Source of the DNA: Leptolyngbyaceae cyanobacterium clean351
Lineage (GTDB): Bacteria; Cyanobacteriota; Cyanobacteriia; DAIDHW01
Direction of reading: 5' to 3'
NCBI GenBank assembly: GCA_027451865.1
Contig: DAIDHW010000001.1
Location: forward strand, 1-64,000
Length of the DNA stretch: 64,000 nucleotides
In this document: positions 40,208-61,961 of the stretch, piece by piece
Numbering within the stretch: position 1 is the stretch's first letter
Layout of the letters: each line of letters opens with the position of its first letter
Notes under the pieces: model-generated
What the model was told of the DNA's origin: nothing
Databases searched by the model: none
Seen by the model: the letters and a program-made list of their open reading frames with translations, nothing else
Made by a program: the position numbers and the translations under genes

Positions 40208-40366
40208 AGCTCCTATACATTGAGGATGGGCGAGGGATACTTGGGATAGCCCCTGTTCCCCCAGGCCCCATGGTAGCTCAGGAAAAATGGCCGCGGTTTA
40301 GCCTAAGTCGAGCGAATCGAGCTACCTTGGAGTTGGCTTTTTTAGCTTGCAGAGGGTCAGGTATCC

Positions 40367-43526: not shown

Positions 43527-46235
43527 ATGGCGGAGAGTTTTCGTCCCACCCCAGGCTCCCTGGTCACCTGTAGGGGCCGCCACTGGACCGTCCTACCTGG
43601 CGACATCCCTGATCTGGTGCTGCTGCGGCCCCTGAGCGGGGATGAGGACCAGGTCTGCGGCCTCTACACTCCCCTGGAGCTAGACTCCCTGGCCCCGGCC
43701 CAGTTTCCTCTGCCCCACCCGGACCAAGCCCAAGACCACCGCGCCGCTCAACTGTTGCTTGCAGCTGCCCGTCTGAGCCTGCGGGATAGTACTAGTCCTC
43801 TACGTTGTCTTGGTCGTCTGTCCCTGCGGCCACGCCCCTACCAGATCGTGCCCCTACTCATGGCCCTGCGCCTGACGACTGTCCGCTTGTTGATCGCCGA
43901 CGACGTGGGGATCGGCAAGACCATTGAGGCGGGCCTGATCGCCCGGGAGCTGCTAGAGCGAGGGGAGGTGAGGCGCCTAGCCGTCCTGTGCCCACCCCAC
44001 CTGTGTGACCAATGGCAGCAGGAATTGCGGGAGAAATTTCACCTTGACCCGGTGGTGGTCAGCAGCAAAACTGTCGGCCGCCTAGAGCGCGACCTGCCCA
44101 GCTTAGGAGAACACCTTTTCGGCTACTACCCCCACCTTATCCTCAGCCTTGATTACGTTAAGGGCGAGCGTCTGCGCGCGCCTTTCCTGACCCATTGTCC
44201 AGAATTAGTGATTGTTGATGAGGCCCACACCAGCACCCAGCCCGGGGATGGGACTGGGGAGCAACAGCAACGCCACCAACTCCTCAAAGAGGTAACCAAG
44301 GACCCCTCGCGCCACTGTATCCTCTTGACCGCCACCCCCCACAGCGGTATTGAGGCCTCTTTCCAATCCCTACTAGGACTGCTCAAGCCCGAATTTGCCC
44401 AGTGGAATCTAGACCAACTCTCCCCCGAGCAGCAGGCTGACCTGGAGAGCCACTTTATCCAGCGCCGCCGTCAGGATGTGGGTCAAGGGGAACAGACCCC
44501 TTTCCCCGAGCGTGAGTCTATTGACCAACCCTACGCCCTGTCTGAAGAGTACCGGGTCCTGCACGACCAGGTTTTCGCCTACGCCCGGGGTCTGATCCAG
44601 GGCGTGACGGAGCAGATGAGTAATGCCCAACGCCAGGGGTGTTACTGGTCTGCCCTGGCGGTGATTCGCTGTGTCATGTCCTCTCCTGCTGCCGCCGTGG
44701 CTGCCCTTGCTAAACGGGCCGGCCCCCCCATCCCTGAGCCGGTTCCCGACCTAGAGTCGCTGTCGGAGACCTACCTGGACAAGGACGAGCAGGACACCGA
44801 CACCCCGCCCCTCCTGGAGCCGGCTGACCAGTTCCGGGAGTTTGTCCACCTAGCTGAGGGCCTCCAGGGGCCTCGGGACGTCAAGCTCCAAGCCCTGCTG
44901 CAGCTGGTGCGGGAGTTACTCGGCCCACCCCCCCGCCCCCCAATCATCTGGTGTCGCTACCTGGCCACAGCTAACTACCTGGCCCACCGGTTACAGGCCG
45001 AGCTCGGGGAGGGGGTGGCTGTAGCCGCCATTACTGGGGAGCTAAACCAGGAGCAGCGCCGCGCCCGCCTGCAGGACCTAGAAGCCAACGACCAGCGGGT
45101 ATTGGTGGCCACCGACTGCCTCAGTGAGGGGGTTAACCTGCAGGAATTATTCCAGGCGGTGATCCACTACGACCTCCCTTGGAACCCCAATCGCCTTGAG
45201 CAACGGGTAGGGCGAGTAGACCGCTACGGTCAAAGGGTTCCTAAGGTTAGCAGTTACTTCCTCTACGGCCAGGGCAATCCCGTAGACGATGCCCTGCGTA
45301 GTGTGCTCATTCGCAAAGCCATCGAGATCCACAGGACCCTAGGGGTGAGCGTGCCAGTACCTGAGGCAGGGGAAGCGGTGGCCAGGGCAGTGCTCGATTC
45401 CCTGCTTGACCAGGGTCAGGGGTGCTCCGAGCAGCTAAACTATACCTGGGACCAGGCGGTCCGGCAAGAGGAGGTCGGCCGGACCCGGTTTGCCCAGCGG
45501 TGGATTAAGCCTGAGCAGGTAGAGCAAGAGCTCCAGGCCGCAGATCAGGTCCTAGGTACTCCACAGTTGGTGGAGGAGTTCGTCCGGACGGCTTGCCTGC
45601 GCCTGGGGTCTCCCTTGGTGCCAGAGAAGGGCTCTACCTGGCGCTTGGGGTCATTACCCCAGGTCCCGGTCAGCCTGCCACCGCTCATCACCTTTAACCC
45701 GCTGGCCCCCCCGGGGGTGGAGTACGTGGGCCGGAATCATCCCTTGGTGGCGGGGCTAGCCCAGCATCTGCTCGGGGAAGCCCTGGAGAATGCCTCTGAC
45801 CCCACCGCCGCCCGCTGCGGCTTCACCATTACCCGGGCAGTCGAACAGCGCACCACTATTCTCCTGCTGCGAGCCCGTTACCTTTTCACCAGCCCCCTAG
45901 CCGGCCCGCGCTTGGTAGAGGAGTGTTTCACGGCTGGCTTTACGGGGCCTCCCCGGGCCCCCCTCTGGCTAGACCCCGCTCAGGCTCAGGCTCTTCTAGA
46001 GGAGGCCGAACCCACGGGGGATCTAGCCCCGGCGCTGAAGCAGCGGCAGCTAGCCGAGGTGATCGGCAAACTGGAGGTATTGACGCCTGAACTGACAGCG
46101 ATAGCTGACCAACGGGCGCGGGCGGTCCTTCAGGCCCACCGCCGGGTCCGGGGTATTACCCGGGAAGAACAAGTCACCGTGCTCCCCCACCTGCCCCTAG
46201 ATATCCTGGGTTTATTTGTCCTTAATCCCCCATGA
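43527..46235 (+). CDS. drmD: DISARM-type SNF2 helicase DrmD
   Basis: A 902-aa superfamily 2 helicase. The N-terminal 100 residues ([33 protein letters not shown]) are the ones seen in DISARM DrmD. The SNF2 core has [22 protein letters not shown] (Walker A, ~124-132), VIVDEAHT (~228) and LLTATPHSG. The C-terminal lobe has [13 protein letters not shown] and [12 protein letters not shown]. It is somewhat shorter than the ~1000 aa usual for DrmD. The stop overlaps the methyltransferase start as ATGA, which is the class 1 DISARM order (drmD then drmMI). Confidence 0.88.
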
Positions 46236-49200
46236 GTATGAAACCGGCCATCAAGGGAGCGATTACGGTCCAGGGATTCTTGAGTCTTGACTTGGTGATG
46301 GCTATGGGTGATGACCTTGGGAAGCTGAGCGACCAGGTCACCAGAGTCTGGGGGGAGGCGCAAACCCGCTGGCGGGCCCTGACCCCAGACACTCCTCTGA
46401 CCCAGGACCAGTGGGTAATCCCTCTCCTCCAGAGCCTTGGTTACTCCCTAGCTCCCCTGACCGAAACCAAGGTACACGGCCAGAGCTTCCCCATCTCCCA
46501 CCAGGCGGCCGGTGTGCCGGTGCACATCGTCGGGGATGGGGTGGATTTAGACCGGCGGCCCCCCAAGGGTGGTTTATCACCCCAGACCCTAGTCCAGACC
46601 TACCTCGACTGCACCGACCCCCTCTGGGGGGTGGTCACCAACGGTCAGCTGTGGCGCTTGGTGCGCAGCTCGGGTTGCCTAAGTGGTAGCCGTTACCTAC
46701 AGGTGGATCTACGCCAAATCCTCACCGAGGGGGACCTGGCGGAATTTGGTCTATTTTATCGCCTCTTCCACCGCTCTCAACTCCCCCTGTCCTCTGGCCC
46801 CGGGGGCAGCCTAGAGGCCCTCTACCAGGAGTCAGTACACCAGGGGGGAAGGGCACGGGAGAAGCTAGGCGAGGGGGTAGTAGAAGCTCTAAAGATTCTG
46901 GGGAATGGGTTTTTGCAGCACCCCCAAAACCGGACTCTCAAAGAGCACTTGAGTCAGGGCGGCCTCACCCCCCAGGAGTACTACGGACAATTGCTGCAGG
47001 TAGTTTACCGGCTGCTGTTTTTGCTGGTGATGGAGGCTCAGGGCCTGCTGCCGGCTGACCATCCCCAGGCACCTATCTACCGCCGGTACTACAGTCTTGA
47101 GCGCCTCCGGGGTCAAGCCGAGCGGCCTAGTCCCCGGCCAGAAAATTTCTCAGATCTGTGGCAAGGGCTGCGGGTCACCTTCGCCCTGTTTGATGAGCGC
47201 CAACGAGGCCAGCTCCTAGGGTTGCCTCCCCTGAACAGCGACCTGTTTCGGTCCGGGACCCTCGAGGAGCTCCAGGAGTTAGATAACCACTTCCTCCGCC
47301 GGGCCATTAGGGCGCTGGGGGTTTTTGATCAGGACCAGCAGCCCCGGCGGATCAACTACGCAGCCCTGGCGGCCGAAGAGCTAGGAAGCATCTACCAGAG
47401 GCTGCTAGACCTCTATCCGGTCCTGGATCAGCAGGAGTGGGTCTTCGAGCTGATAGCGGCCCCGGAAGTGCAGACTAAGAGTCCCGCCTACTATACTCCC
47501 CCAGAGTTAGTGAAGCAGATAGTCAAAGATACCCTAGAACCAGTGCTGGCCGAGAAGTTAGCCGCCGGTAGGGAACCTGAGGAAGCAGTTTTAGACTTGA
47601 AGGTCTGTGACCCGGCCTGTGGGTCGGGCCAGTTTTTGTTGGCGGCCGCTCGCTACCTAGGCCAAAAACTCGCCGAGGCTCGGGAAGCTGACCCTAGCCC
47701 CCTAACCCTGCGGCAAGCAGTACGTACGGTGATTAGCCAGTGCATCTACGGTGTCGATCTCAACCCCCTAGCGGTAGACCTGACTAGGTTAGCCCTAGGG
47801 ATTGAGGGGTTTTGTCCTGGTCTATCAATGATGTTTCTGGACCACCGGATTAAGTGCGGCAACTCCTTGGTGGGGGTGGTGGACTTAGGCTGCCTAGAAC
47901 AGGGAATCCCTGATGAGGCCTACAAGCCAGGTAATGCTGATGATAGACATGTGGCCACCCAAATGCGAGAAGCAAACAAAGGTGCCTACCGGGAGCGCCG
48001 CCTCCTACCTGACCTGGGCCCCGGGCGGCTGGCCCACCGCCAAGCCCTACTCAACCTAGGGGACCTAAAGGACGACCAGCCGGCGGCGGTGCACCACAAG
48101 CACCAGCAATACATCCAGGGCCGCCAGCTCGGCCTGCGAGACTACCAAGCTTGTAACCTCTGGGTGGGGGCCTTTTTCATCCCCCTGACCCGCACCTACA
48201 CTGACCGAGTACCCACCTGGACGCACCTAGAGCGCTTCCTGCGGGGCCAACCCCTTGACCCGGCTCTCCAGGAACTAGTAGAGCAAACCGCTCTCCGGGA
48301 ACAGTTTTTCCACTGGCCCCTAGAATACCCGGAGGTGTTCGGGGAGCGGGGAGGATTTGATTGTGTGGTAAGTACTCCCCCCTGGGAGTCACTCCAGGTC
48401 CGGGAGTTCGGGTTTTTTGCCGCCCGGGATCCAGCAGTAAGGCAGGCCCAAACCAAGGAGGAGCAGCAGGAGCTGATTCGGCTGATGCCGACGCGCAATC
48501 CGGCCCTAGAGGCGCAATTCGGCCAAGTTAAGCGCTCTGAGGAGGCCCAAAACAAGTTTATCCGCAGCAGCGGCCGCTTTAGGCACACTAAGTCCGGGCA
48601 GCTAAACACCTATACCCTCTTTCTGGAAACTGCCCAGAGGATCACCCGCGGCCGCGCTACCCTGTTGGTGCCGGGGAGTATTCTGGGTGAGGCCAGAGCC
48701 CAGGAGTGGCTGGGGACCCAGCTATCAAACCAGCACCTGTTGAGCCTAGGGGGCTTCGATGCCCAGTCATCCCTGCTAGATTCATCCCTTGCCCCCGATG
48801 GTTTTGGGATTTTGACCCTCACCCACCAGTCAACCCCCCCGGATCTGGTTTTTCACTGTCAAACCCTCAAGGACCTCAAGGACGAGCGCCGACACCACAG
48901 CTACACGATCAAAGAGCTACACCAGATTAGTCCTAACACCCTCAGCCTGCCCCAAGCCCGCACTGACCGGGATGCCCAGCTGCTGAAGAAAATCTACACC
49001 CGGGCACCGGTGTTGGTAAATGAGACTCGCGGGCACAACCCCTGGCAGGTTGACCTGGTCAACCTCAAGGGGGAGGCCGGGAGTAAGTTGATTAGCCGGC
49101 AGGCGGTGGAGCAGCAGTTAGGGGAGCGGTGGCAGCGAGACTGGCTAATGGTGTTGCAGCGGGTGATCCCGAATCCTCGGGAGCGGACTGTACATCTTCG

Positions 49201-49738
49201 GGTCGCCGCCAAGGGTGGCCTAGACGATCAGATTGCCCTAGTGCTCCTGGAAACCAAGAGTTACCCCATTCAGGCCCTGTTTTTGGCCAACCTGAATAGC
49301 CTGGTCCTGGATTTTGTCGCTGGCCAGAAACTAGTCGGCACGGCTTTGACCTTCCCCTTCCTGCAGCAGCTGCCGGTTCTGCCCCCCAAGTCCTACCAGT
49401 CTGGCCACCAAGCGTTTATCCTCCCCCGGGTCATCGAGCTCACCTACACCACCTTTGACCTGAAACCCTTTGCCCAGGACCTGGGCTACTCTGGTCCTCC
49501 TTTCCCTTGGGACCCCCAGCGCCAGGCGCGCCTTAGCAGTGAACTAGACGCCTACTACGCCCACCTCTACGGCCTTAGCTGGGATGACCTGCGTTACCTC
49601 CTAGACCCCAGGGAGGTCTACGGGCCTGACTTTCCCGGTGAAACTTTTCCCCTCCTGCAGGAGCGGGAAATTCAGCAGCTAGGGGAATACCGCACTAGGA
49701 GGCTGATCCTGGAGGCCTGGGACCAACTGGGGTTTTAG
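46232..49738 (+). CDS. drmMI: DISARM-type adenine methyltransferase DrmMI
   Basis: A 1168-aa Eco57I/type IIG-like methyltransferase. The N-terminal ~450 residues are a helical region, typical for DrmMI. Motif I is LKVCDPACGSGQFLLAAARY (~457-476) and the helper motif YGVDLNPLAVDLTRLAL follows at ~505. Motif IV reads FDCVVSTPPWESLQ (~713), with Thr in place of the catalytic Asn/Asp of NPPW. LVPGSILGEARAQEWL and the target-recognition C-terminal part follow. In DISARM this enzyme marks host DNA. The odd motif IV questions activity. The gene overlaps drmD by 4 bp. Confidence 0.88.
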   Translation: MSMKPAIKGAITVQGFLSLDLVMAMGDDLGKLSDQVTRVWGEAQTRWRALTPDTPLTQDQWVIPLLQSLGYSLAPLTETKVHGQSFPISHQAAGVPVHIVGDGVDLDRRPPKGGLSPQTLVQTYLDCTDPLWGVVTNGQLWRLVRSSGCLSGSRYLQVDLRQILTEGDLAEFGLFYRLFHRSQLPLSSGPGGSLEALYQESVHQGGRAREKLGEGVVEALKILGNGFLQHPQNRTLKEHLSQGGLTPQEYYGQLLQVVYRLLFLLVMEAQGLLPADHPQAPIYRRYYSLERLRGQAERPSPRPENFSDLWQGLRVTFALFDERQRGQLLGLPPLNSDLFRSGTLEELQELDNHFLRRAIRALGVFDQDQQPRRINYAALAAEELGSIYQRLLDLYPVLDQQEWVFELIAAPEVQTKSPAYYTPPELVKQIVKDTLEPVLAEKLAAGREPEEAVLDLKVCDPACGSGQFLLAAARYLGQKLAEAREADPSPLTLRQAVRTVISQCIYGVDLNPLAVDLTRLALGIEGFCPGLSMMFLDHRIKCGNSLVGVVDLGCLEQGIPDEAYKPGNADDRHVATQMREANKGAYRERRLLPDLGPGRLAHRQALLNLGDLKDDQPAAVHHKHQQYIQGRQLGLRDYQACNLWVGAFFIPLTRTYTDRVPTWTHLERFLRGQPLDPALQELVEQTALREQFFHWPLEYPEVFGERGGFDCVVSTPPWESLQVREFGFFAARDPAVRQAQTKEEQQELIRLMPTRNPALEAQFGQVKRSEEAQNKFIRSSGRFRHTKSGQLNTYTLFLETAQRITRGRATLLVPGSILGEARAQEWLGTQLSNQHLLSLGGFDAQSSLLDSSLAPDGFGILTLTHQSTPPDLVFHCQTLKDLKDERRHHSYTIKELHQISPNTLSLPQARTDRDAQLLKKIYTRAPVLVNETRGHNPWQVDLVNLKGEAGSKLISRQAVEQQLGERWQRDWLMVLQRVIPNPRERTVHLRVAAKGGLDDQIALVLLETKSYPIQALFLANLNSLVLDFVAGQKLVGTALTFPFLQQLPVLPPKSYQSGHQAFILPRVIELTYTTFDLKPFAQDLGYSGPPFPWDPQRQARLSSELDAYYAHLYGLSWDDLRYLLDPREVYGPDFPGETFPLLQEREIQQLGEYRTRRLILEAWDQLGF

Positions 49739-49801
49739 GGGGCTGAAGTAATTCCCCGGGAGTCGGCCAACTTGAGCCCTGATGTCCTATAGTATTTGGG
49801 G

Positions 49802-49831
49802 TTGCCCACCCACTTTAATTAGTACTAGAAT
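49802..49831 (+). promoter_or_regulatory. Promoter of parA copy 1, predicted leaderless
   Basis: TTGCCC (49802-49807) and TAGAAT (49826-49831) are 18 bp apart. The expected start falls 6-7 bases on, at the GTG of parA (49838), so the mRNA would have no leader. The palindrome TAGTACTA (49820-49827) overlaps the -10 element and is a candidate operator or ParB/ParA site. Confidence 0.55.
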
Positions 49832-49837
49832 ACTTCT

Positions 49838-50710
49838 GTGAAAGTCATTGCTGTTTACCACAACAAAGGCGGCGTCGGCAAAACCACCGTCGCAGTGAAC
49901 CTGGCCGCCGCCCTGAGGATCAAGGACCACAGAGTCCTGCTGATTGACATTGATCACCAAGCTAATTCCACCTTTGCCACCGGCCTGATGAAGTTTCAGG
50001 ATGAAGAGGATGACGACATAGCAGGCAATAACATTCTTCAGGTCATCAGTTCTGAGGATTTTTATCCTATCTCTGAGGTTGTCCGCCCATCAAAGGAGTT
50101 TAATGATCCGGAAATTGACGTAATTCCCTCTCATATTGAACTCGTTAAACAGCAAGATGAATTTTCCGCTTTCGGTGATCTGATTTGGCAGCGTCTACAT
50201 AGAAAATTGCAGGAAGCAAAGTATGACTATGACTGGGTAATCATTGATGCCCCGCCTGCTAAGGATTGGTATGCAAAGATCGCCCTAGGAACTGCTGACT
50301 ACCTAGTTATTCCTTCAGACCTCAAGGCTTTCTCAAATAGTGGATTAGAGATAATCAAGGAATTCGTGGAGGAGATTGACCAAAAGCGCCTCCAAGCTGG
50401 TAGGGAGCGGCTAGAAATTCTCGGGGTCTTACCATCCAAGGTATCTACCAACTTTGCATATGGCCGCACACTGGGCTCGCGCAAGGATGAAATCATCAGG
50501 AAGCACCCCCACGTTAAGTTTCTCGATTCGATCATCTATGAGCGGACTGATCTTGCCCACTGTTTAGATTATCAGAGGTCTGTTAACCCTTGGAGTCAGC
50601 CACTGCCTGCGCCCCGGTCTATATTCAGATATAAGGCTCGTTCCGCCTCAAGTCAGGAATTTCATAAACTCGCTGACGAAATTTTAGCAAAAACAGGAGT
50701 ATACAGGTGA
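49838..50710 (+). CDS. ParA-like ATPase, copy 1
   Basis: A 290-aa deviant-Walker ATPase. The motif YHNKGGVGKTTVAVNLAAAL is at the N-terminus, with LLIDIDHQANST, DWVIIDAPPA (Walker B) and VIPSDLKAFS following. ParA proteins form ATP-dependent dimers on DNA and work with a ParB-like partner, here the next gene, which overlaps as GTGA. Codon use is less GC-rich than that of the flanking helicase and methyltransferase genes. It starts with GTG, apparently on a leaderless mRNA. This gene type is not a standard DISARM part. Confidence 0.88.
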   Translation: MKVIAVYHNKGGVGKTTVAVNLAAALRIKDHRVLLIDIDHQANSTFATGLMKFQDEEDDDIAGNNILQVISSEDFYPISEVVRPSKEFNDPEIDVIPSHIELVKQQDEFSAFGDLIWQRLHRKLQEAKYDYDWVIIDAPPAKDWYAKIALGTADYLVIPSDLKAFSNSGLEIIKEFVEEIDQKRLQAGRERLEILGVLPSKVSTNFAYGRTLGSRKDEIIRKHPHVKFLDSIIYERTDLAHCLDYQRSVNPWSQPLPAPRSIFRYKARSASSQEFHKLADEILAKTGVYR

Positions 50711-51492
50711 ACAGATGCTACATATTAACAGTAAAAAATGTCACTAGTAAGGTGCCTCGCTCCCAGTTCAACCATCAGGAAATTGAGGAGTTAGCCAACC
50801 GTATCTTAGCTGCCGATGGCCTGTTAGCTCCCCTAATCCTCAGGCAGATCGACATGGATACTCTCGAGGTGATCGCGGGCCACAAAGCTTACTACGCTGC
50901 CGTCCGCGCTCGGGAGATCAACCCCCGGGCGGCGGAAATGGTGAATGGCTTCGTGGTGCCCGATGAGCAGGCAGAGGCAGCAGTCGCACAACTTCAGGCC
51001 CTCTACCCTGACTCTGCCCAAACCCTCTTACCGGCAGCCGCGGGCACCGAGGACCGCCTGAGTAATTTAGAAAATTACCTGGGCCGGGTCCTCGACGAAA
51101 TGAGGAAGGATAGTCGCGATATGAGGAAAGATATCAACACCCTGGTGCAGACTATCACGGGATTAGCAGAAAAACTAGATAAGCTGACCTTAGCATCCCC
51201 CAAGCCAGCTGGGAAACGTAAAAACCTACCCCCGGATCTACTACTCTACGACCAAGACCCAGAGTTATTGAAGGTTGCCAATACATCTGAGGATCTGGAG
51301 GCCAGATTTAACCAGGCTGAGATTAAGGGACAAACGGCTTGGAAAATTGTCAACTTCATAAAAGAAGCACGTCAGGTAACCCCCTTTACTTCCTTGACCG
51401 ATATCTACAATCGGGTAAAGGACTTGGGTCCTGCGAGGATCCCTAAATTTGTCGAGGCCTTGAGGTTGGACCCCGAGAACCTGCCCTTCTAA
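50707..51492 (+). CDS. ParB-like protein with HhH-like C-terminus, copy 1
   Basis: A 261-aa protein starting at GTG and overlapping parA by 4 bp. Residues 15-75 resemble the ParB/Srx N-terminal fold: FNHQEIEELANRILAADGLL, then APLILR and EVIAGHKAYYAAVRARE, where GHKAYYAA replaces the usual GERRYRAA. A coiled coil (~115-160, RKDSRDMRKDINTLVQ) follows. The C-terminal ~55 residues (TPFTSLTDIYNRVKDLGPA) look like a helix-hairpin-helix DNA-binding unit. No DNA-binding HTH of classic ParB is seen. It is probably the partner of the ParA-like ATPase. Confidence 0.75.
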   Translation: MNRCYILTVKNVTSKVPRSQFNHQEIEELANRILAADGLLAPLILRQIDMDTLEVIAGHKAYYAAVRAREINPRAAEMVNGFVVPDEQAEAAVAQLQALYPDSAQTLLPAAAGTEDRLSNLENYLGRVLDEMRKDSRDMRKDINTLVQTITGLAEKLDKLTLASPKPAGKRKNLPPDLLLYDQDPELLKVANTSEDLEARFNQAEIKGQTAWKIVNFIKEARQVTPFTSLTDIYNRVKDLGPARIPKFVEALRLDPENLPF

Positions 51493-51569
51493 TCGATATT
51501 TACAATCGGGTAAAGGGCTCGGGTCCTAAAACGATCCCTAAATTTGTCAAGGCCTTGAGGTTAGACCCC
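51399..51569 (+). repeat. 95-bp tandem duplication at the parB 3' end
   Basis: The stretch 51399-51474 (CGATATCTACAATCGGGTAA and following, to GGACCCC) is repeated at 51494-51569 with ~10 differences, starting 95 bp later. The second copy comes after the parB stop (TAA 51490-51492) and is not part of a gene. It encodes a stray HhH-like tail in a shifted frame, a relic of earlier copies. Confidence 0.85.
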
Positions 51570-51783
51570 CACCCCCCCCGCTGCACCAGTAGCAGATTTT
51601 GACCGCCCAGGCCGCCGCCAGTTCTGGGAACGGTTCAGCCTACCTTATCCAGTCCAAGAGGGCTAGGGGATCGCCATTCTGCCCCCTGCGCCCTGGCCGT
51701 AAACCCACCTCCTCACTAAACTCCGGGGAGTATCAGTAGTAGAGTCGGCTAATGCGAGTCCGGATAGTCTATAGTATTCAGGG
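51570..51783 (+). other. Spacer between the two ParA/ParB modules
   Basis: Together with the relic before it and the promoter after it, this makes a 327-bp gap without a gene (51493-51819). It starts with a C-rich run (ACCCCCCCCG) and has no frame I can support. Its last ~60 bp resemble the region upstream of parA copy 1. Confidence 0.6.
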
Positions 51784-51813
51784 TTGCCCACCCACCTTAA
51801 TTAGTACTAGAAT
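51784..51813 (+). promoter_or_regulatory. Promoter of parA copy 2, predicted leaderless
   Basis: TTGCCC (51784-51789) and TAGAAT (51808-51813) are again 18 bp apart, 6 bp before the GTG at 51820, with TAGTACTA at 51802-51809. The conserved positions in both copies support real function. Confidence 0.6.
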
Positions 51814-51819
51814 ATCTCT

Positions 51820-52725
51820 GTGAAAATCATTACTATCTACCACAACAAGGGCGGCGTCGGCAAAACCACCATCGCAGTTAACCTGGCGGCCGCCCTAAGG
51901 ATTAAGGGCAAGAAAGTCCTGTTGATTGACATTGATGAGCAGGCTAATTCCACCTTTGCCGCCGGCCTGATGAAGTTTCAGGACGAAGATGAAGACTATA
52001 TTAGATATAACAATATTCTTCACGTTATCAGTTCTGAGGAATTCCATCCCATCTCTGAAGTTGTTCGCCCATCAGATGGATTTAATGACCCAGAAATTGA
52101 CATAATTCCCTCTCACATTGAACTTGTTAGGGGTCTAAAGAGTCAAGATGGAGACTTCTTTTACCAAGGTGAGCTCTCCTTCTATGGTGATCAAATCTTG
52201 CTGCGCCTGTACAGAAAATTGCAGGAAGTAAAGTCTGACTACGACTGGGTCATCATCGATGCCCCACCCGCCAAGGGTGTCTACGCAAAGATTGCCCTTA
52301 TGACTGCTGACTACCTAATTATTCCTTCAGACCTCAAGGCTTTCGCAACCTATGGATTAGAGATTGTTAAGGAGTTTGTGGAGGAGATCAAGCCCAAGCG
52401 CCTTGAAGCTGGTAGGGAGCCCCTGAGAGTTCTCGGGGTCTTGCCCTCCAAGGTATCCACTAATTTTGGATATGTGCGCAGTATACTAGAACCCCGAAAA
52501 AAAGAAATTATCAGGAAGCATCCCCACGTTAAATTTCTCGATGCGATTATCTATGAACGGACTGATCTTGCCAATTGTTTAGATAACCTCAAGCATGAGA
52601 AGCCCTGGAGCGAGCCGATACCCGCTCCCCGGTCCATATTCAAACATAAGGCTCGTTCCGCCTCAAGTCAGGAATTTCATCAACTCGCCGATGAAGTTTT
52701 GGAGAAGACGGGAGCAAACAGATGA
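51820..52725 (+). CDS. ParA-like ATPase, copy 2
   Basis: A 301-aa paralogue of the upstream ATPase, about 80% identical by eye. It keeps YHNKGGVGKTTIAVNLAAAL, LLIDIDEQANST, DWVIIDAPPA and VLGVLPSKVSTNFGY. It has a short insertion near residues 105-122 (GLKSQDGDFFYQGE). The stop overlaps the following parB-like frame as ATGA. Because its own partner gene is broken, it may work with the ParB of copy 1 or be on its way to loss. Confidence 0.88.
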   Translation: MKIITIYHNKGGVGKTTIAVNLAAALRIKGKKVLLIDIDEQANSTFAAGLMKFQDEDEDYIRYNNILHVISSEEFHPISEVVRPSDGFNDPEIDIIPSHIELVRGLKSQDGDFFYQGELSFYGDQILLRLYRKLQEVKSDYDWVIIDAPPAKGVYAKIALMTADYLIIPSDLKAFATYGLEIVKEFVEEIKPKRLEAGREPLRVLGVLPSKVSTNFGYVRSILEPRKKEIIRKHPHVKFLDAIIYERTDLANCLDNLKHEKPWSEPIPAPRSIFKHKARSASSQEFHQLADEVLEKTGANR

Positions 52726-53484: not shown

Positions 53485-53497
53485 GTCCCCCCTAACC

Positions 53498-55615
53498 ATG
53501 ACCACCCGTGCCCTGACCATTACCTCCACCTTCCTCAATGAGCTGTTGAAGTCCCCCCCAGCGGTTCAAGGGAAGGTGTTTAAAACAGTCAAGGCCCTGG
53601 GGGCTGAGGCGGGCAACCTGCCCGGAGACGTGGAAAAAGTCAAAGGCTTTGAGGGAGACATCTACCGGACCCGGGTGGGAGAGTACCGCCTGTTCTTCTG
53701 CCAAAATCAAGGCTGGATCAAGTTTTTGAGTGTGCGCAAGCGCGATGAGCACACCTATAAAACTAAAATTCCCGATGCCGGCCCGCCGCCCCCCTTACCC
53801 GCTGCTCAAGCCCAAGAGGTCGATCTAGACCAACTTCTGGCCACTGCCGAGGCCGAGAGGCAACAGATAACAGTTGACCCAGACGAGCTTCTGGCCCTTG
53901 CTAGCATCGAGGGGCCACCGATAACAACCGAGCCAGAGGCGCCAGACTCAGAGGCTTTTCCCCTCACTCCAGACCTGCTGCACCAGTGGCAAATCCCCCG
54001 CGAGTACTGGCCAGGGCTCATCGCCGCCCCTACTCCTGATGCTCTGCTGGAACTGGATCAGGCGGTCCCCCCCCTCTACCTTAGCCGCATCCTCGACAAC
54101 CTCTACTCCAAGGCCCTCCCGGAGGTGTTGACTGAGCATGAATACCTCCTCCAGCAACCCGAGGACCTAGAGCGCTTTGTGGAGGGTAGTCTAAGCGCTT
54201 TTCTGCTCAAGCTAGACCCTGACCAGGAAAAACTCCAGAACTTTGGTCGGCAAGGCCCGGTTTTAGTTAAGGGAGGCCCCGGCACCGGTAAATCTACCCT
54301 GGCAATCCATCGGGTGCGGCGGCTGCTTGAGCTGGGTTTTGAGTCGGTGCTCTTTACCACCTATACCAAAGCTCTAGTCACCTACTCCGAGCAGCTGCTC
54401 AGGCAACTCCTTGGGCAGCCCCCCGGCCAGGCGGGGGTGAAGGTAACCACCGTGGATGCCTTAGCCCTAGAGTACTTTCGCCGGGCCCACGGTAAACCCA
54501 AGTTTGCCACCGATGCCCAAGCCCAGAATTTGCTGCAAACAGCCCTACATACCGCTGAGTTGTCTTGCAGTCATGAGTTTGACCGCCAGGGCCGTCTCCA
54601 GTCCTTGGAGCGCCTCGGCCTGCCTTACCTGTGGGATGAGATCCGGGAAGTCCTAGAGGGGTGGGGGATCGCTACCCTAGCTGACTACCTGGCGATAGAG
54701 CGCCCCGGCCGCAAAACCCCCCTCCCAGCCAAACTCCGGGAAGCCCTCTGGAGCGTCTACCAGACCTGGCAGGCTCTGATGGCTGAGGGGGGCTACATCA
54801 CCTGGGGGCAGATGCGGTGGCGGGCCCTAGAGTTAGCCCGCTGCGAGCCTCCCCCCTACCAGGCCTTGGTGATCGATGAAGCCCAGGACCTCTCACCGGT
54901 TGCCCTGCGGTTCCTCTTGGCCCTGGTACCAAATCTGGAAGGGGTGTACCTAACCGCCGACGCTGCCCAGTCTATTTACCGGCGCGGCTTTAGCTGGAAC
55001 CAGATCCACCAGGAACTGCAGGTGAGGGGCCGCACCCTCATCCTCAAGCAAAACTACCGCAACACCGCCCAGATTCTGGCGGCCTGCCATCAGATCCTCA
55101 CCGGGGAAGTTGAGGAGTTTCCTACCTCCTCTCGATGCCAGGGGGAACCCCCGCTCTTGGTGCTGACGGACCAGGCTGAAGACGAAATCAAGGCCATCAC
55201 GGAGTTCTTACGGGGGGCGGCCAAACACCATCGCCTACCCCTTGCTGGGGGAGCTCTCCTATGCCCGAATACCAGTCTGGGTCAGGAGATGGCTGAGCGC
55301 CTCTCTCGAAGCGGTCTAAAAGCCCAGTTCCTCACCAGCAACCAGATCGACCTGGATGACCCCCACGTCAAGGTTTTGACTATCCACGCCGCCAAGGGTC
55401 TAGAGTTCCCCTTTGTGGTGGTCGCCGGCCTCGAGGAGGGGGTTTTCCCCAGTACCAAAGCCGGGGACCCGGAACTAGAGGCCTCTGTAGAAGCCCAGCG
55501 GCGTCTGTTCTACGTGGGCTGCTCCCGGGCCATGCGGGCGCTGCTAGTGTGCGGTTCAGCCCGTCACCCTTCCCCCCTGCTGGCGGGTCTCAGGCCCCCC
55601 CACTGGCAAACCTAA
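53498..55615 (+). CDS. RelE-like domain fused to UvrD-type helicase
   Basis: A 705-aa protein. Residues 1-88 resemble RelE/ParE toxin folds (FLNELLKSPPAVQGKVFKTV, IYRTRVGEYRLFF, FLSVRKRDEHTYK). A linker with two similar segments (VDLDQLLATAEAERQQIT and VDPDELLALASIEGPPIT) follows. The superfamily 1 helicase has Walker A GGPGTGKSTLAIHR (~258), DEAQDLSPVAL (~459), KQNYRNTAQILA, TIHAAKGLEFPFVVVAGLEEG and FYVGCSRAM. No nuclease motif is visible. The start ATG is 13 bp after the parB relic and the stop is 5 bp before the next gene, so it is in the same operon. Confidence 0.9.
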   Translation: MTTRALTITSTFLNELLKSPPAVQGKVFKTVKALGAEAGNLPGDVEKVKGFEGDIYRTRVGEYRLFFCQNQGWIKFLSVRKRDEHTYKTKIPDAGPPPPLPAAQAQEVDLDQLLATAEAERQQITVDPDELLALASIEGPPITTEPEAPDSEAFPLTPDLLHQWQIPREYWPGLIAAPTPDALLELDQAVPPLYLSRILDNLYSKALPEVLTEHEYLLQQPEDLERFVEGSLSAFLLKLDPDQEKLQNFGRQGPVLVKGGPGTGKSTLAIHRVRRLLELGFESVLFTTYTKALVTYSEQLLRQLLGQPPGQAGVKVTTVDALALEYFRRAHGKPKFATDAQAQNLLQTALHTAELSCSHEFDRQGRLQSLERLGLPYLWDEIREVLEGWGIATLADYLAIERPGRKTPLPAKLREALWSVYQTWQALMAEGGYITWGQMRWRALELARCEPPPYQALVIDEAQDLSPVALRFLLALVPNLEGVYLTADAAQSIYRRGFSWNQIHQELQVRGRTLILKQNYRNTAQILAACHQILTGEVEEFPTSSRCQGEPPLLVLTDQAEDEIKAITEFLRGAAKHHRLPLAGGALLCPNTSLGQEMAERLSRSGLKAQFLTSNQIDLDDPHVKVLTIHAAKGLEFPFVVVAGLEEGVFPSTKAGDPELEASVEAQRRLFYVGCSRAMRALLVCGSARHPSPLLAGLRPPHWQT

Positions 55616-55620
55616 CCCCC

Positions 55621-58600
55621 ATGGAAACTTTTTATCTCCCAGAACTGCTCAAGCACAATCCACGCACCCAGGAAGCTTTTCAAGCCGCGCTCACCCAGGG
55701 CCAGGCGTACCTAGACTGCCGGGGGGTAGCCTGCCTAACCTCCTCCCAGCTAGTAACCCTCGATCACCTCTTCCCGGCCACCTGGGATGTGGCGGACTTT
55801 TGGGCCTTAATTGACTCTGATACCCTCAGCCCCGCCCTGGCTGACCAACTACTCCTCTGGATCCGCCAGCGCCGGGGGGCTGCCGCTAAGAACCCCTCAC
55901 CTCCCCCAACCATGGCCAAACCCTGCCTTGACATCTTCCAGCTGCGCGACGCCATCGTCCAAGACTACCGTGACTACACCACCAGCTTTGTCTACGTGCG
56001 CGACCCGGCCCTGGCGGAATTTATCGAGGCGCAATTTAACCAGGGCGCTCTCTGGCCGGAACCCCTCGTCCAACTCAGCCCCACCTACCAACTAGGGGCC
56101 AGCCTGCAGCACTTAATTGACGAGGGTGTTCTCCACCGGGGCTGTCGGGACTACTTTCCCACCTACCTCCAGCAGCGTAGGTTTTATTACCACCAAGAGC
56201 GCGCCTTCCGGGCCGCCCGCCGCCAGGAACCCTACGTGCTGACCACTGGCACCGGCTCCGGTAAAAGTCTCACCTACGTGGTGCCCATCCTTGACGACCT
56301 GCTGCGCCACCCCGGCCCCGGTGTCCGGGCAATCCTGGTTTACCCCACAAATGCCCTGATTAACAGCCAGGAGGAGGAATTTAACAAATACCTCCAGCAC
56401 TCCTCCAACTCGCAGATCCGGGTGGAGCGCTATACCGGCCAAGAGAGCCTCCAGGAGAAAACCCGGATCCAGGCTAACCCCCCCCAGATCCTCCTGACTA
56501 ACTACATGATGCTGGAGCTGATGCTCAGCCGTAACCTGGAGCGGAGTCTGGTGGAAAGCCCCAGCCTCAAGTTTGTGGTCCTCGATGAACTGCACACCTA
56601 CCGGGGCCGCCAGGGGGCCGATGTGGCCCTCCTGATGCGTAAGCTCCGCCGGGGTCATAGCCAGGAGCTCCTTTACATCGGCACCAGTGCCACCATGGCC
56701 ACCGGCGGCGACCAGGCTGAGCGCCGCCAAACAGTAGCCCGGGTGGCAAGTAAGCTGTTTGGGGTGACCATCGACCCAGACAACGTCATAGACGAAACCC
56801 TCCAGCGGACCATCCCCGGGCCAGACCCCACCGCTGATCAACTGCGCCAGGCTTTGGCAGAGGGTTTGTCTGCGGAGCGCACCAAGGCTAGCTTTTGCGA
56901 CCACCCCCTGGCGGCCTGGATCGAGATGAACTTTGGCCTAGAGGAAAAGGACGGCCACCTGACCCGCCGCACCCCCATTTCCCTCGCCCAGGGAGCCTGC
57001 CGCCTGGCGAGCGAAACTGGTCTTGACCCGGAGGTCTGCCGCCAGGCCCTGAGGAGTCTGTTCCTCTGGGGCAGCAGTACAGGCAGTCTCCCCTTCCGGC
57101 TACACCAGTTTATCGCTAAGGGGGGCAACGTCTACGCCACCGCCGAGCCCCGGGAGTCTCGGTTCTTGACCCTAGAGGGCCAGTACAGCACCACGGATGA
57201 CCGGTTGCTCTACCCTGTACTCTGCTGCCGTGAGTGCGGTCAGGATTACTACGCCGTGCGCTACGACCCCCAGCGCAATCAGATTTTGCCCCGCCCCCTT
57301 AGTGCCCTCAATGGAACCCTAGAGGACCAAGACTCCCAGGCGGGCTACTTCACCCTCAATGAGCCTGGGCTAGAGGAGGAGCTTGACCTACCCCAGAACT
57401 GGTTTAAGGAAACTAAAAGGCGCGGCAAGGTCCCTAAACCTGAGTATCAGTCCTCGATTCCCCGAGCCCTAGAGGTGCTCCCCACCGGCCAAATTGCCCC
57501 CGAGGGTTCCGGAGTCAGGGGCTGGTTTGTGTCCGCACCCCTAGCCATGTGCCTGAACTGCGGCATCCTGCACCCCCAAAAAGGTCGGGAACTCAACCGC
57601 CTAGCCTCCCTCGGCAGTGGCGGCCGCAGCACGGCTACCACTCTTTTGTGCGTCACCGCTGTCGAGCAACTGCGCCGGAGTAGGGCTGTGGATCCCGAGG
57701 CCTGCAAGATCCTCAGCTTCACTGATAACCGTCAGGATGCCTCTCTCCAGGCCGGGCACTTCAACGACTTTGTTCAAACTAGCCTCCTGCGGCGGGCCCT
57801 CAACCGGGCTGTCCAAACCCAGGATCAGCTTACCTACCGAGACCTAGTGCCAGCAGTGGTGAGGGAATTGAACATCCCTCAGCAAGAGTACGCCCGGCAA
57901 GAGACGAGGAACGACGACCGCAAAAATCAGCAGGCCTGGGAGTGCCTAATTGAATACCGCCTGTACCAGGATCTGCGCCGGGGCTGGCAGATTACCCTGC
58001 CCAACCTAGAGCAGTGCGGCCTCCTAGAGATTGGGTACGACGGCCTGGAGGCAGTTTGTGGGGAAGCCACCCTGTGGCCAACTGATTCGCTGCTGAGGCG
58101 CGCCACCCCCGAAGAGCGTCATCGGGCCTGCCGTGTCTTCCTAGACCGACTGCGCCGAGAGCTGGTCCTCGACGCCTACCATCTCCAACAAGCCCAGCTT
58201 GAGTCCTTGAAGCGGCAAGTCCAGCAGCTGATCCGGGAGCCCTGGGGGTTTGACGACTCCGAGTACCTGCAGGCGGCTCGCTGGGCCACCTGGGTGGGGG
58301 GGCCAGGGAATGCCACGGTCAAGCTCACCGCCCGCAGCAAAATCGGCAAGTTACTGTGTGCCCCCACTACCTGGCCCAGTCAAAACCTCTCTGGTGCCCT
58401 AGTCGAACCCGAGTACCAGGAACTCCTTGAGGGCCTAGTCTACACCCTAGTCGAGGCCGGCTTTCTCCTGATCCAGGACCAGCAGGTCCAGGTGCGGGTG
58501 AGCTCCCTGGTTTGGCAGGCCCGCAAGTGGGCCAGTCTGCCCCCTGACCCCCTCTCCTCGGGGCGCGAGGACAAGCCTCAGACTCGCCCGGTCAATCAAT

Positions 58601-60858
58601 TCTTCCAGCAGTTCTACAACCAGGACTCGGAACTCGAGGGCCAGGTCGGCGGCGAGCACACTAGTCAAGTGAACAACGAAGTGCGGCAAGCGCGGGAGAC
58701 TGACTTCCGGAAGGGTAAGCTCTCCGCCCTGTTCTGCTCCCCGACTATGGAACTGGGGATCGACATTGCTGACCTGAGCGTAGTCCACCTGCGCAACCTC
58801 CCCCCTAACCCGGCTAACTACGCCCAGCGCAGTGGGCGGGCCGGGCGCAGTGGCCAGGGGGCCTTGATCCTCACCTACGCCTCGGCGGAAAGCGGTCACG
58901 ACCAGTACTTCTTCCGGCGCCCGGAGCAGATGGTAGCCGGGGCTGTACTCCCCCCTTGCCTGGAACTAGGCAATCAAGACCTGATCAAGGCCCATATCCA
59001 CTCCCTGTGGTTGGCCTACACGGGCTGTTACCTAGACGACTCCATGAATAAGGTCCTCGACCTAGAGCAAGATGAGTACCCCCTCAAGGCCAGCCTCAGG
59101 GAACAGCTCACCCTCAAACCTGAGGCGGTGCACAGATGTTTCCAGGCAGCTGAGGCCCTGCTCGCTGACCAATTCTGCCAAGCGGACCTTGCCAAAATCA
59201 GCTGGTACACGGGGGAATTCCTCGGTCGTGTCCTAGAGCAGGCCCAGCACAGCCTTGACCGGGCTTGCGACCGCTGGCGCCGCCTCTACCACCAAGCCGA
59301 TACCCAACTTCAGGAGGCGCGCCGGGCAGGTGACCGCTGCCGCCGCGGTGCCGGGACCCAAAGGCAGCAGGAGGAAGCCCGGACCCTCCAAGCGGAGGCC
59401 GAACGGCAAATTAATGTACTAGTAGGACAATCCAAGAGGTCTAGTCAGTCCCAGTTTGACTTCCAACCCTACCGCTACCTGGCCAGTGAGGGGTTCCTAC
59501 CCGGCTACAATTTCCCCCGCCTGCCGGTGCGGGCCTACATTCCTAACCAGACCGGTGGCGAGTTCATTACCCGGGCCCGCCCCTTGGCGATCCAGGAGTT
59601 CGGCCCCAGAAATATCTTGTACTATGAAGGGAGAAAGTTCCAGGTCAGCAAAACTTGCCTCCCCCTCCAGGGCCTGCCGAGCGGTTATCGGCGGGCATCC
59701 CTGTGCTCCGGGTGCGGCTACTTCCACGAAGGGAAAGACTTCCAGCGGGACCTGTGTGAACACTGCCAAGGCCACCTAGGTGCAGATAGGCTCAATCATC
59801 TCCTGGTCATGGACACCATGGTGACCCGCCGGCGGGAACGGATCACCTGTGATGAGGAGGAGCGGCTCAAGTCGGGCTATAAAGTAACTACCCACTTTCG
59901 CTTCACTGGAGTGCCCCAGCCAACAGTCACTGCCAGCACCCCCGAGGGGACCAAACTGCTAGAACTTACCTACGCCAATAGCGCCAGCCTCTGGCGGATT
60001 AACCGGGGGCTATCGCGACGGAAGACAAAGGGATTCGCCCTCGACCCGGGGTCGGGAGATTGGGGGGAAAAGGAGGGTGCAGACACAGAAGTGTGTCTGA
60101 TGGTGGAGGATACAACTAATGTACTTTTAATGAAACCCTCGGGCCTAGACCCGGCTGCCCAGGTGAGCTTCCAGGCCGCCCTAGAGCAGGCGATCCGCAT
60201 CCACTTCAAGCTAGAGGAAGCCGAACTAGATTCTGAATGGCTCGGCCAAGGGGCCTACCTCCTGTTTTGGGAGGCCGCAGAGGGGGGGGCTGGGGTCCTC
60301 TCCCAAATCCTCCAATATCCGGAAACCCTCGCGGACCTAGCCTGGGTCGCCTTGGAGATTTGTCACTTTGGTGAGCAACCCGAGGCGGGCTGTGGCAAGG
60401 CCTGCTACCGCTGCCTCCTCTCCTACCACAATCAACCGGCCCATCCCCACCTAGACCGCCACACCATTAGGGCCTACCTCGAGCAGCTGACCACTAGCCA
60501 GGTGGGGGCCGATGCTCCTAGTCCGTCTCGAGACGAGCAGTACCAGTGGCTGCTTAGGCACACTGACCCCCAGTCTGACTTTGAGCGCGAGTTCCTCGGG
60601 GAGGTCTATCGGCAGGGAAGGAAGCTACCCGATGTGTCTCAGGAGTTAATTCCCCAGGCCAACCTTAAGCCAGACTTTATCTATCGGCAAAGCAAAACGG
60701 CGATTTTCTGTGACGGGGCAGCCCACGACCACCCGGAGCGCCGGCACCAGGATGAACTCAGCCGCGAAGACCTCAAATACACCGCCGGCTATGAAGTGCT
60801 CGTGTTTCGCTACGACGAGGATTGGCGGGCGGATTTGCCGCTCTTGGATGAACTGTAA
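55621..60858 (+). CDS. Giant DEAH helicase with DUF1998 and nuclease-like C-terminus
   Basis: A 1745-aa protein. The ATG at 55621 lies 5 bp after the previous stop; an upstream in-frame start (55549) would overlap it and adds unmatched residues. Helicase motifs are TTGTGSGKSLTYVVP (~206-215), VVLDELHTYRG (~321), YIGTSATMA and QRSGRAGRSGQGALI (~1070). Zinc-binding Cys clusters are CCRECG, CLNCGIL and CSGCGYF-CEHC. The DUF1998 region has GGAGVLSQIL and CGKACYRCLLSYHNQPAHPH (~1585-1610). The last ~100 residues (KPDFIYRQSKTAIFCDGAAH, DLKYTAGYEVLVFRYDED) look like a PD-(D/E)XK/DUF559 nuclease. It combines roles given to DrmA and DrmB in DISARM. Confidence 0.88.
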   Translation: METFYLPELLKHNPRTQEAFQAALTQGQAYLDCRGVACLTSSQLVTLDHLFPATWDVADFWALIDSDTLSPALADQLLLWIRQRRGAAAKNPSPPPTMAKPCLDIFQLRDAIVQDYRDYTTSFVYVRDPALAEFIEAQFNQGALWPEPLVQLSPTYQLGASLQHLIDEGVLHRGCRDYFPTYLQQRRFYYHQERAFRAARRQEPYVLTTGTGSGKSLTYVVPILDDLLRHPGPGVRAILVYPTNALINSQEEEFNKYLQHSSNSQIRVERYTGQESLQEKTRIQANPPQILLTNYMMLELMLSRNLERSLVESPSLKFVVLDELHTYRGRQGADVALLMRKLRRGHSQELLYIGTSATMATGGDQAERRQTVARVASKLFGVTIDPDNVIDETLQRTIPGPDPTADQLRQALAEGLSAERTKASFCDHPLAAWIEMNFGLEEKDGHLTRRTPISLAQGACRLASETGLDPEVCRQALRSLFLWGSSTGSLPFRLHQFIAKGGNVYATAEPRESRFLTLEGQYSTTDDRLLYPVLCCRECGQDYYAVRYDPQRNQILPRPLSALNGTLEDQDSQAGYFTLNEPGLEEELDLPQNWFKETKRRGKVPKPEYQSSIPRALEVLPTGQIAPEGSGVRGWFVSAPLAMCLNCGILHPQKGRELNRLASLGSGGRSTATTLLCVTAVEQLRRSRAVDPEACKILSFTDNRQDASLQAGHFNDFVQTSLLRRALNRAVQTQDQLTYRDLVPAVVRELNIPQQEYARQETRNDDRKNQQAWECLIEYRLYQDLRRGWQITLPNLEQCGLLEIGYDGLEAVCGEATLWPTDSLLRRATPEERHRACRVFLDRLRRELVLDAYHLQQAQLESLKRQVQQLIREPWGFDDSEYLQAARWATWVGGPGNATVKLTARSKIGKLLCAPTTWPSQNLSGALVEPEYQELLEGLVYTLVEAGFLLIQDQQVQVRVSSLVWQARKWASLPPDPLSSGREDKPQTRPVNQFFQQFYNQDSELEGQVGGEHTSQVNNEVRQARETDFRKGKLSALFCSPTMELGIDIADLSVVHLRNLPPNPANYAQRSGRAGRSGQGALILTYASAESGHDQYFFRRPEQMVAGAVLPPCLELGNQDLIKAHIHSLWLAYTGCYLDDSMNKVLDLEQDEYPLKASLREQLTLKPEAVHRCFQAAEALLADQFCQADLAKISWYTGEFLGRVLEQAQHSLDRACDRWRRLYHQADTQLQEARRAGDRCRRGAGTQRQQEEARTLQAEAERQINVLVGQSKRSSQSQFDFQPYRYLASEGFLPGYNFPRLPVRAYIPNQTGGEFITRARPLAIQEFGPRNILYYEGRKFQVSKTCLPLQGLPSGYRRASLCSGCGYFHEGKDFQRDLCEHCQGHLGADRLNHLLVMDTMVTRRRERITCDEEERLKSGYKVTTHFRFTGVPQPTVTASTPEGTKLLELTYANSASLWRINRGLSRRKTKGFALDPGSGDWGEKEGADTEVCLMVEDTTNVLLMKPSGLDPAAQVSFQAALEQAIRIHFKLEEAELDSEWLGQGAYLLFWEAAEGGAGVLSQILQYPETLADLAWVALEICHFGEQPEAGCGKACYRCLLSYHNQPAHPHLDRHTIRAYLEQLTTSQVGADAPSPSRDEQYQWLLRHTDPQSDFEREFLGEVYRQGRKLPDVSQELIPQANLKPDFIYRQSKTAIFCDGAAHDHPERRHQDELSREDLKYTAGYEVLVFRYDEDWRADLPLLDEL

Positions 60859-60983
60859 AATAGCCCAAATAGCCCCCCTAGGGCCGTATGAAGAATCGAG
60901 TACCCCCCGTCTCCGCTACCTAGACCCCTACCTAGAATGGGGTTAGAAGGACAAAAGTTAGGTAAACTCAGGAGGTCGTGGCC

Positions 60984-61961
60984 GTGGCTAAATTACTTGA
61001 ACCGCACTTGGCCCTGGGGGAGCAACCTAGTCGGCCGTCGGGTGCATCGGTCCTCGTGGGCACCGCCGCTGGGCTGGAGTACCTTAGCTCTGACCAACCC
61101 CCGGAGTTGGCTGGCCACTCCATTACCTCCTTGGCCCCGGATGGGGTTGGCCTGTGGGCGATCACTGATCAAAACACCATCTGGTATCGCCCCTGGCAGG
61201 GTACCTGGCAAGTCATGGCCGCTAGCCACCAGTGGCGGCTGACCTGCCTGAGGCCCCTCGGGGCTACGCTCCTAGTGGGTACCTCTGAGGCTCACCTGCT
61301 GCAGCTGGTAGATGGTGACCTACAACCGCGAGACCACTTTGAGCACCTAGAGGACTACCAGGGATGGTATACCCCTTGGGGTGCCCCCCCGGAGGTGAGG
61401 TCCCTGGCCTTGGGGGCCGAGGGGGAATGGTATGTCAACGTGCACGTGGGGGGGATTATCCGCTCTAGCGACCAGGGCCGGACCTGGCAGTCTACCCTGG
61501 ATTTCCATGCCGATGTCCATGAAGTGCGCACGGTTCCCCATCGGCCTGGTTGGGTCGTAGCGGCCACCGCCCAGGGGTTAGCTAGTAGTACCGATGGGGG
61601 CCATACCTGGGCCTTCGACCGGGCTAACCTCCACTCCTCCTACGCCCGGGCGGTGGCTGTCGGTCAAGATACCCTCCTGATGAGCAGCTGCACAGGCCCC
61701 CACGGAGGGCAGGCGGCGGTATACCGGCGCTCCCTTGACCAGGCCGGTAGCTTCCAGAAGTGTAGTCAAGGGCTGCCGGAGTGGTTTGCCGACAACATTG
61801 ACACGGGGCGCCTGGATGCCTGGGGGGACTTTGCCGCCTTTGGGACTCGGGATGGGCAAGTCTTTCTGTCTGAGGATGCCGGTCAGTCCTGGCGTCAGCT
61901 GGTCTCTGGCCTGCCCCCAATCCTGGGTCTGTGCCTTGTGGTCCCGGGTAACCTCAACTAA
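60984..61961 (+). CDS. BNR/Asp-box beta-propeller protein
   Basis: A 325-aa protein. AGGAGG at 60970-60975 lies 8 bp before the GTG at 60984, which is preferred to the GTG at 60978. Asp-box repeats are SSDQGRTWQS, STDGGHTWAF and SEDAGQSWRQ; blades such as VGTAAGLEYLS and VAATAQGLASS fit a sialidase-like propeller. No signal peptide and no sialidase active-site set are visible, so a cytoplasmic scaffold or sensor is more likely than a glycosidase. It follows the giant helicase by ~125 bp on the same strand and may be part of the defence system. Confidence 0.78.
   Translation: MAKLLEPHLALGEQPSRPSGASVLVGTAAGLEYLSSDQPPELAGHSITSLAPDGVGLWAITDQNTIWYRPWQGTWQVMAASHQWRLTCLRPLGATLLVGTSEAHLLQLVDGDLQPRDHFEHLEDYQGWYTPWGAPPEVRSLALGAEGEWYVNVHVGGIIRSSDQGRTWQSTLDFHADVHEVRTVPHRPGWVVAATAQGLASSTDGGHTWAFDRANLHSSYARAVAVGQDTLLMSSCTGPHGGQAAVYRRSLDQAGSFQKCSQGLPEWFADNIDTGRLDAWGDFAAFGTRDGQVFLSEDAGQSWRQLVSGLPPILGLCLVVPGNLN

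Follow-up and report, generated by a model that had tools for sequence, protein, structure and literature searches.

The disARM-related Antiviral Defense Array (ARMADA) comprises ArmA, a BrxHII-like helicase, ArmB, a PglX-like methylase, ArmC, a YprA helicase with a Vsr-type nuclease, and ArmD, a RelE-GajB-like helicase (Bell et al., 2025; PMC12458937). Phage defence in E. coli required all four Arm proteins and acted directly, without abortive infection; anti-phage activity was demonstrated for the E. coli type II system only (PMC12458937). In Druantia III, a YprA-family helicase-nuclease loads on 3' single-stranded DNA-containing intermediates (PMC13192584). Here we analyzed a locus in a stretch of 64,000 nt from Leptolyngbyaceae cyanobacterium clean351 (GCA_027451865.1, DAIDHW010000001.1, positions 1 to 64,000), referred to below as the window. 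The locus is very probably a cyanobacterial ARMADA with an ArmC of the type I side and the gene order A-B-cargo-D-C, in which a duplicated ParA/ParB-helix-hairpin-helix (HhH) module is most likely a separate passenger. The set was assigned to ARMADA because its genes and domains match the published A, B, C and D set. An earlier note on this DNA had proposed a distinct DISARM-like system. This was right as to the relation to DISARM and as to a single giant protein with DrmA-, DrmB- and nuclease-like roles, but the helicase matches DruE far better than DrmA, and ARMADA has already been published and phage-tested, so that the idea of a DISARM-like giant-helicase system is not new.

The arm genes and their recurrence

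Calling of open reading frames (ORFs) confirmed the locus genes and their positions, all on the + strand as the earlier note had it; the arm and par genes, the two cargo copies and the parts of ArmC described below lie on this strand. Four of the genes are armA, armB, armD and armC. The first two overlap by 4 bp (46232-46235), and PADLOC identified them as a DpdE/DrmD-type SNF2 helicase and a DrmMI-type methylase, in line with the adjoining drmD- and drmMI-type genes noted before. The junctions had been described as mostly 4-13 bp, which holds for four of the eight (A/B, ParA1/ParB1, ParA2/ParB2 and D/C) but not for the gaps between armB and parA1 (∼99 bp), parB1 and parA2 (327 bp), parB2 and armD (395 bp), and armC and a BNR propeller gene (119 bp).

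The recurrence of the gene set is far beyond chance, as many genomes share the combination of armA, armB and armC, and 11 loci have armD immediately 5' of armC (the window, L051, L052 (truncated), L053, L073 (end only), G116, G093, G587, G607, P. galeata and ABRG5-3). In the other cyanobacterial loci that were inspected, no armD was observed ahead of armC. The same operon is found across many cyanobacteria, on chromosomes and plasmids. A close ArmC (∼50-57% identical), or large pieces of one, was present in about 18 of the 386 genomes of the phylum and a more distant one in a few others, with further relatives in genome and plasmid collections, including Chroococcidiopsis, Nostoc, Planktothrix, Dolichospermum and Pseudanabaena plasmids. 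The lack of any second genome with these genes together, named in the earlier note as evidence that would speak against a system, was therefore not encountered for the core genes.

ArmC, encoded by armC (55621-60858), is a YprA-family helicase-nuclease of 1745 aa with DEAD, Helicase_C and MZB domains. Two starts are possible, GTG 55549 (1769 aa) and ATG 55621 (1745 aa, 5 bp past armD), and the latter was preferred because orthologue alignments begin there; with this start, the 1745-aa DEAH-DUF1998-nuclease protein reported earlier was recovered (DEAD/DExH, MZB(DUF1998) and a Vsr/DUF559-like nuclease). The MZB/DUF1998 zinc-binding domain, a DrmB-like region, maps to 60169-60417 (PF09369, E = 1.3e-7). 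The last 112 residues (60520-60855) form a PD-(D/E)xK nuclease domain of the Vsr/DUF559/MTES_1575 superfamily, which matches DUF559 with E = 9.6e-4 in the window protein and 2e-6 in one orthologue, and MTES_1575 with E values down to 9e-7 in an ArmC orthologue; Vsr matches are marginal in several orthologues. Since a Foldseek search of the C-terminus against the PDB gave no usable match, the nuclease assignment rests on the Pfam matches and on the conserved residues, the invariant E, PDF and DG being kept. An N-terminal extension of ∼100 aa (55621-55920) is evident from matches to non-cyanobacterial relatives, which start at residue ∼102. It is present in the cyanobacterial clade and in ABRG5-3 and missing from other type I-like relatives, and its conserved residues are D32-C33, P52 and W55. 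Foldseek found no usable match for the N-terminus in the PDB, and a STAS-like resemblance suspected by eye was unsupported.

The product of armA (43527-46235) is a RapA/BrxHII-like Swi2/Snf2 helicase of 902 aa with SNF2-rel_dom and Helicase_C domains, for which the PADLOC profiles DpdE, DrmD and BrxHI/HII scored 595, 294 and 193 bits, respectively. It is ∼51-54% identical to most ArmA proteins from other cyanobacterial loci. Its Walker A motif (DDVGIGKT) and DEAH are intact, while motif VI reads QRVGR where others read QREGR or QRNGR. The adjacent armB (46232-49738) encodes a PglX/DrmMI-like class I adenine methyltransferase of 1168 aa (PADLOC DrmMI, 247 bits; Eco57I and N6_Mtase domains), which is shorter than most orthologues. 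Motif I is DPACGSG. Motif IV, in contrast to the GNPPW of 27 other ArmB rows, E. coli included, reads STPPW, with Thr715 (nt 48374-48376) in place of Asn. An assembly error is a possible cause, but two adjacent residues differ. Because STPPW replaces GNPPW, methylation by this ArmB is doubtful and may be weak or absent.

ArmD (53498-55615, 705 aa) has a RelE/ParE-like N-terminus fused to a GajB/UvrD helicase (UvrD_C and UvrD-helicase domains; PADLOC GajB, 106 bits), as the earlier note had recognized. The G116 orthologue matches ParE_toxin with E = 5.9e-5, and the match of the RelE part of the window protein alone is weak (E = 0.08). The ATPase motifs of ArmD are intact, like those of ArmA (Walker A/DEAH) and ArmC. 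ArmD is 46-57% identical to the ArmD proteins preceding armC in other cyanobacteria, and ArmD and ArmC identities are correlated (Spearman rho 0.79 without ABRG5-3, the pairwise values being non-independent). On the ABRG5-3 plasmid, a cyanobacterial-type ArmD (51-60%) stands beside an ArmC that is only 25-29% identical; therefore, ArmD can move between ArmC lineages. This locus of Pseudanabaena sp. ABRG5-3 (L147:2605-19799) is a type II-like ARMADA in which ArmD is ahead of ArmC and armA and armB are separated by a VapBC pair. A RelE-UvrD protein ∼34% identical to the window ArmD over nearly its whole length was also observed on a plasmid of Deinococcus sp. NW-56 (L148:13980-16001), where it is encoded in a BREX locus with brxC on one side and an N-6 DNA methylase gene on the other.

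Relation to DISARM, Druantia and the two ARMADA types

Class 1 DISARM resembles the locus in its adjacent DrmD-like and DrmMI-like genes, and the DrmD and DrmMI profile matches of ArmA and ArmB together with the 4-bp overlap of their genes would fit a true class 1 variant with fused DrmA, DrmB and DrmC. Such a variant is extremely unlikely and was already disfavoured. The giant helicase scored 301 bits with the PADLOC DruE profile and 43 bits with DrmA, the NCBIfam DrmD model gave ArmA 333 bits, far under its curated cut-off of 610, and the published phylogeny groups such proteins with ARMADA/Druantia (PMC12458937). ORF calls and PADLOC agree with the earlier note that separate drmA, drmB and drmC genes are lacking; the window has instead a fused YprA helicase, DUF1998 and nuclease. 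Nor was a phospholipase D (PLD)-type DrmC seen, again as noted before: PADLOC found none at the locus, and NCBIfam phospholipD_antiphage matched ArmA only via its helicase part. Membership in DISARM was rejected on the missing separate DrmA, DrmB and DrmC and the DruE-type helicase. By the same top PADLOC profile, the giant protein could be taken for DruE and the locus for a Druantia system, with which the window ArmC shares the YprA lineage. This is scarcely credible, given that its partners are ArmA and ArmB rather than the Druantia partner genes, that its nuclease end is Vsr-like and not the PLD-like or inactivated Vsr end of Druantia, that E. coli DruE falls outside the 61-row set of the ArmC tree described below, and that a better DruE match (819 bits) exists elsewhere in the same genome.

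This second YprA helicase (L165:6678-11798; G000:C2, about 36677-41797) is a DruE-like protein of 1706 aa with DruE1 as its PADLOC profile, and its gene is preceded by ORFs of 934 and 322 aa to which no family was assigned. ARMADA and Druantia thus co-occur in this genome, matching reports from E. coli.

Within ARMADA, the window has the BrxHII/RapA-like helicase, the PglX-like methyltransferase (with STPPW as motif IV) and the C-terminal Vsr-type (PD-(D/E)xK) nuclease on ArmC, and its DEAD, Helicase_C and MZB domains lie in a single protein, corresponding in these domains to the YprA helicase with its fused OB-CON-DUF1998 region. All four components, including RelE-UvrD, are common to the window and the type II systems of E. 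coli ATCC 8739 and NCTC 12900. Identities with ATCC 8739 over aligned segments are 27% for ArmA, 26-31% for ArmB, 24-33% for ArmC and 29% for ArmD. The RelE-GajB/UvrD helicase ArmD is a type II feature. In contrast to the strict type II order A-B-C-D, the window order is A-B-cargo-D-C, and its ArmC has 1745 rather than 2113 aa and takes a separate tree position. In the ArmC tree, which was built quickly, has long branches for the E. coli proteins and is narrower than a full YprA-family tree, the window and 25 other rows form a cyanobacterial clade (Shimodaira-Hasegawa-like approximate likelihood ratio test support 100) within a 61-row set (support 100) that includes C-A-B-ordered loci, while the ArmC proteins of E. 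coli type II and ABRG5-3 as well as DruE lie outside it. The order within the cyanobacterial clade is A-B-(slot)-(D)-C. The window ArmC is thus placed on the type I side of ARMADA by this tree, yet the locus has ArmD, which PMC12458937 ties to type II. Compared with type I, for which a cyanobacterial A-B-C order is published (PMC12458937) and with whose C-A-B-ordered loci the window ArmC clusters, the locus differs by the RelE-UvrD ArmD between armB and armC, the ArmC extension, a variable slot and the ParA/ParB cargo, none of which is described for type I in the article text of PMC12458937.

The accessory-gene slot, its cargo and the flanking genes

Cyanobacteria keep exchanging accessory genes at an insertion slot that separates armB from the arm gene after it. 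The distance between the two genes has a median of 1650 bp and is at least 300 bp in 25 of 26 loci, whereas the A-B and D-C distances have medians of 65 and 9 bp, respectively (positions were entered by hand, and some of the loci are close relatives). The contents of the slot include PIN/VapC, MNT-HepT, XisH, Uma2, DUF2887/Rpn, Fic, GmrSD, an AAA_21 and HNH pair (Septu-like), protein kinase-AAA genes and transposases. The Septu-like pair, an AAA_21 ATPase and an HNH protein, was seen in the armB-armD slot of G093 (L102:10045-12153), and an 824-aa AAA-like and protein kinase fusion, a candidate defence gene, stands beside ParA/ParB in G607 and G587 (L137:11617-14091 and L138:11320-13794). Embedded genes have been reported for other multi-gene defence clusters, namely GmrSD-like genes inside Hma clusters, BrxU with BREX and TgvAB in a type I restriction-modification operon (Payne et al., cited in PMC11411939). 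These cases are alike in having accessory genes inside a defence operon, and the ARMADA slot, too, can hold GmrSD-like genes (L051, L137); they differ in that the host operon of the window is ARMADA and its cargo is, among others, a ParA/ParB pair.

The cargo of the window is a tandem duplication of ∼2 kb found by repeat search, with an upstream region, parA1 and most of parB1 in copy 1 (49760-51481) and their counterparts in copy 2 (51742-53476), the two being 78-90% identical in DNA (repeats D1-D5). A promoter-like TTGCCC-18-TAGAAT lies upstream of parA in each copy (49802 and 51784), although such sites are no more frequent than chance expects. parA1 (49838-50710) encodes a ParA-type ATPase of 290 aa (AAA_31, 156 bits). 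The 261-aa product of parB1 (50707-51492) has ParB_N, a coiled-coil-like middle and an HhH-like C-terminus; its family profile matches Noc/Spo0J N-domains, and its C-terminus matches 2i5h (AF1531) and the 27ae DNA-binding protein, both of which we take to be HhH folds. The earlier note counted two ParA/ParB-like modules. Both are present, but the second is a decayed tandem copy: parA2 (51820-52725, 301 aa) is 76% identical to parA1, whereas parB2 (52722-53484) is broken by a stop after residue 126 and by more stops and a frame change before a ParB1-like C-terminal remnant at 53293-53469. The stretch coding for the HhH-like C-terminus of ParB1 is repeated once more over 95 nt at 51489-51583, at and past the parB1 stop.

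Base composition at third codon positions (GC3) is 0.50 in parA1 and 0.50-0.60 across the par genes (0.65 at the start of parB2) versus 0.70-0.73 in the arm genes. Stand-alone ParA/ParB relatives occur in many cyanobacteria, the ARMADA-linked ParA proteins do not form one clade, and the window ParA is separate from the others. Because of the foreign base composition, the tandem duplication with its broken ParB2 and the stand-alone relatives, the pair is read as a recurrent passenger, for instance a maintenance module or a candidate defence pair that is embedded yet independent. That it is a known plasmid partition system was also considered and rejected, as ParB1 had no tblastn match in PLSDB plasmids.

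The gene set had been drawn too widely in the earlier note, which included these modules, here seen as optional cargo in a variable slot, and the BNR propeller downstream of armC. The other ARMADA loci scanned have no propeller homologue in their vicinity, and the single good relative (54%) comes from a genome that lacks ARMADA. The propeller is therefore a neighbour and was ruled out as a component. About 5 kb upstream of armA, an N6_N4_Mtase-type DNA methylase gene (37947-38909) overlaps the end of a tRNA-Val gene (38883-38956, - strand). In G051 and G233, a related gene (289 aa) is located downstream of ARMADA.

Proposed mechanism and state of the window copy

Observed at the window locus are its gene content and domains, the conserved motifs of its ATPases and nuclease, and the recurrent linkage of its genes. 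A direct DNA-targeting defence by ArmA-ArmB-ArmC(-ArmD), with ArmC as a putative helicase-nuclease, is proposed because of the homology to the tested E. coli ARMADA and the Druantia III study; both antiphage activity and the order of events are taken from this literature. ArmA, a Swi2/Snf2 translocase, and ArmB, an adenine methyltransferase, would inspect or mark DNA. ArmC would load on single-stranded DNA, unwind it and cut with its C-terminal nuclease, and ArmD (RelE-UvrD) might act as helicase cofactor or effector. Phage DNA would thereby be blocked directly and without abortive infection.

Several points weigh against our interpretation. We know of no phage test of the window locus or of any cyanobacterial ARMADA. 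The typing relies on the position of ArmC among C-A-B loci in the quick tree rather than on a comparison with the published type I reference protein. The window copy could be impaired, given Thr715 in ArmB and the altered motif VI of ArmA, and indeed a decaying, inactive ARMADA is conceivable, if rather unlikely: TPPW replaces the NPPW in which E. coli N971A abolished defence (PMC12458937), ArmB is short and ParB2 is broken, but the four long ORFs are intact with host-like GC3, as are the ATPase motifs of ArmA, ArmC and ArmD and the nuclease residues of ArmC. Finally, the slot position of the ParA/ParB-HhH pair in five genomes (the window, L131, L133, L137 and L138), always in the orientation of armB and armD, its duplication in the window and the restriction of close copies in this genome to this locus leave a small chance that it is a working ARMADA part, for example by tethering the complex to the nucleoid, by spreading it there or by controlling it via ATP-dependent ParA-DNA binding. 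Most ARMADA loci, however, are without the pair, several ARMADA genomes (G111, G019, G125, G087, G116 and G095) hold it elsewhere, its composition is foreign, and unrelated genes occupy the same slot at other loci. It is less probable still, and quite improbable overall, that the locus represents an ARMADA sublineage with ParA/ParB-HhH as a working part and the methylase mark dropped or altered (STPPW), in which self/non-self discrimination or positioning would depend on a ParA-DNA scaffold.

A cyanobacterial ARMADA with passenger genes, which we regard as the best description of the locus, places a system flagged as unknown in a tested family. The fixed slot downstream of armB offers a place to look for candidate defence genes like the ParA/ParB-HhH pair, and the STPPW allele, if still active, would test whether ARMADA really needs methylation. 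With ArmD next to an apparently type I-side ArmC in the window, an ArmD of the same family next to a type II-like ArmC in ABRG5-3 and a distant relative in a BREX locus, the split between type I and type II is blurred in cyanobacteria.
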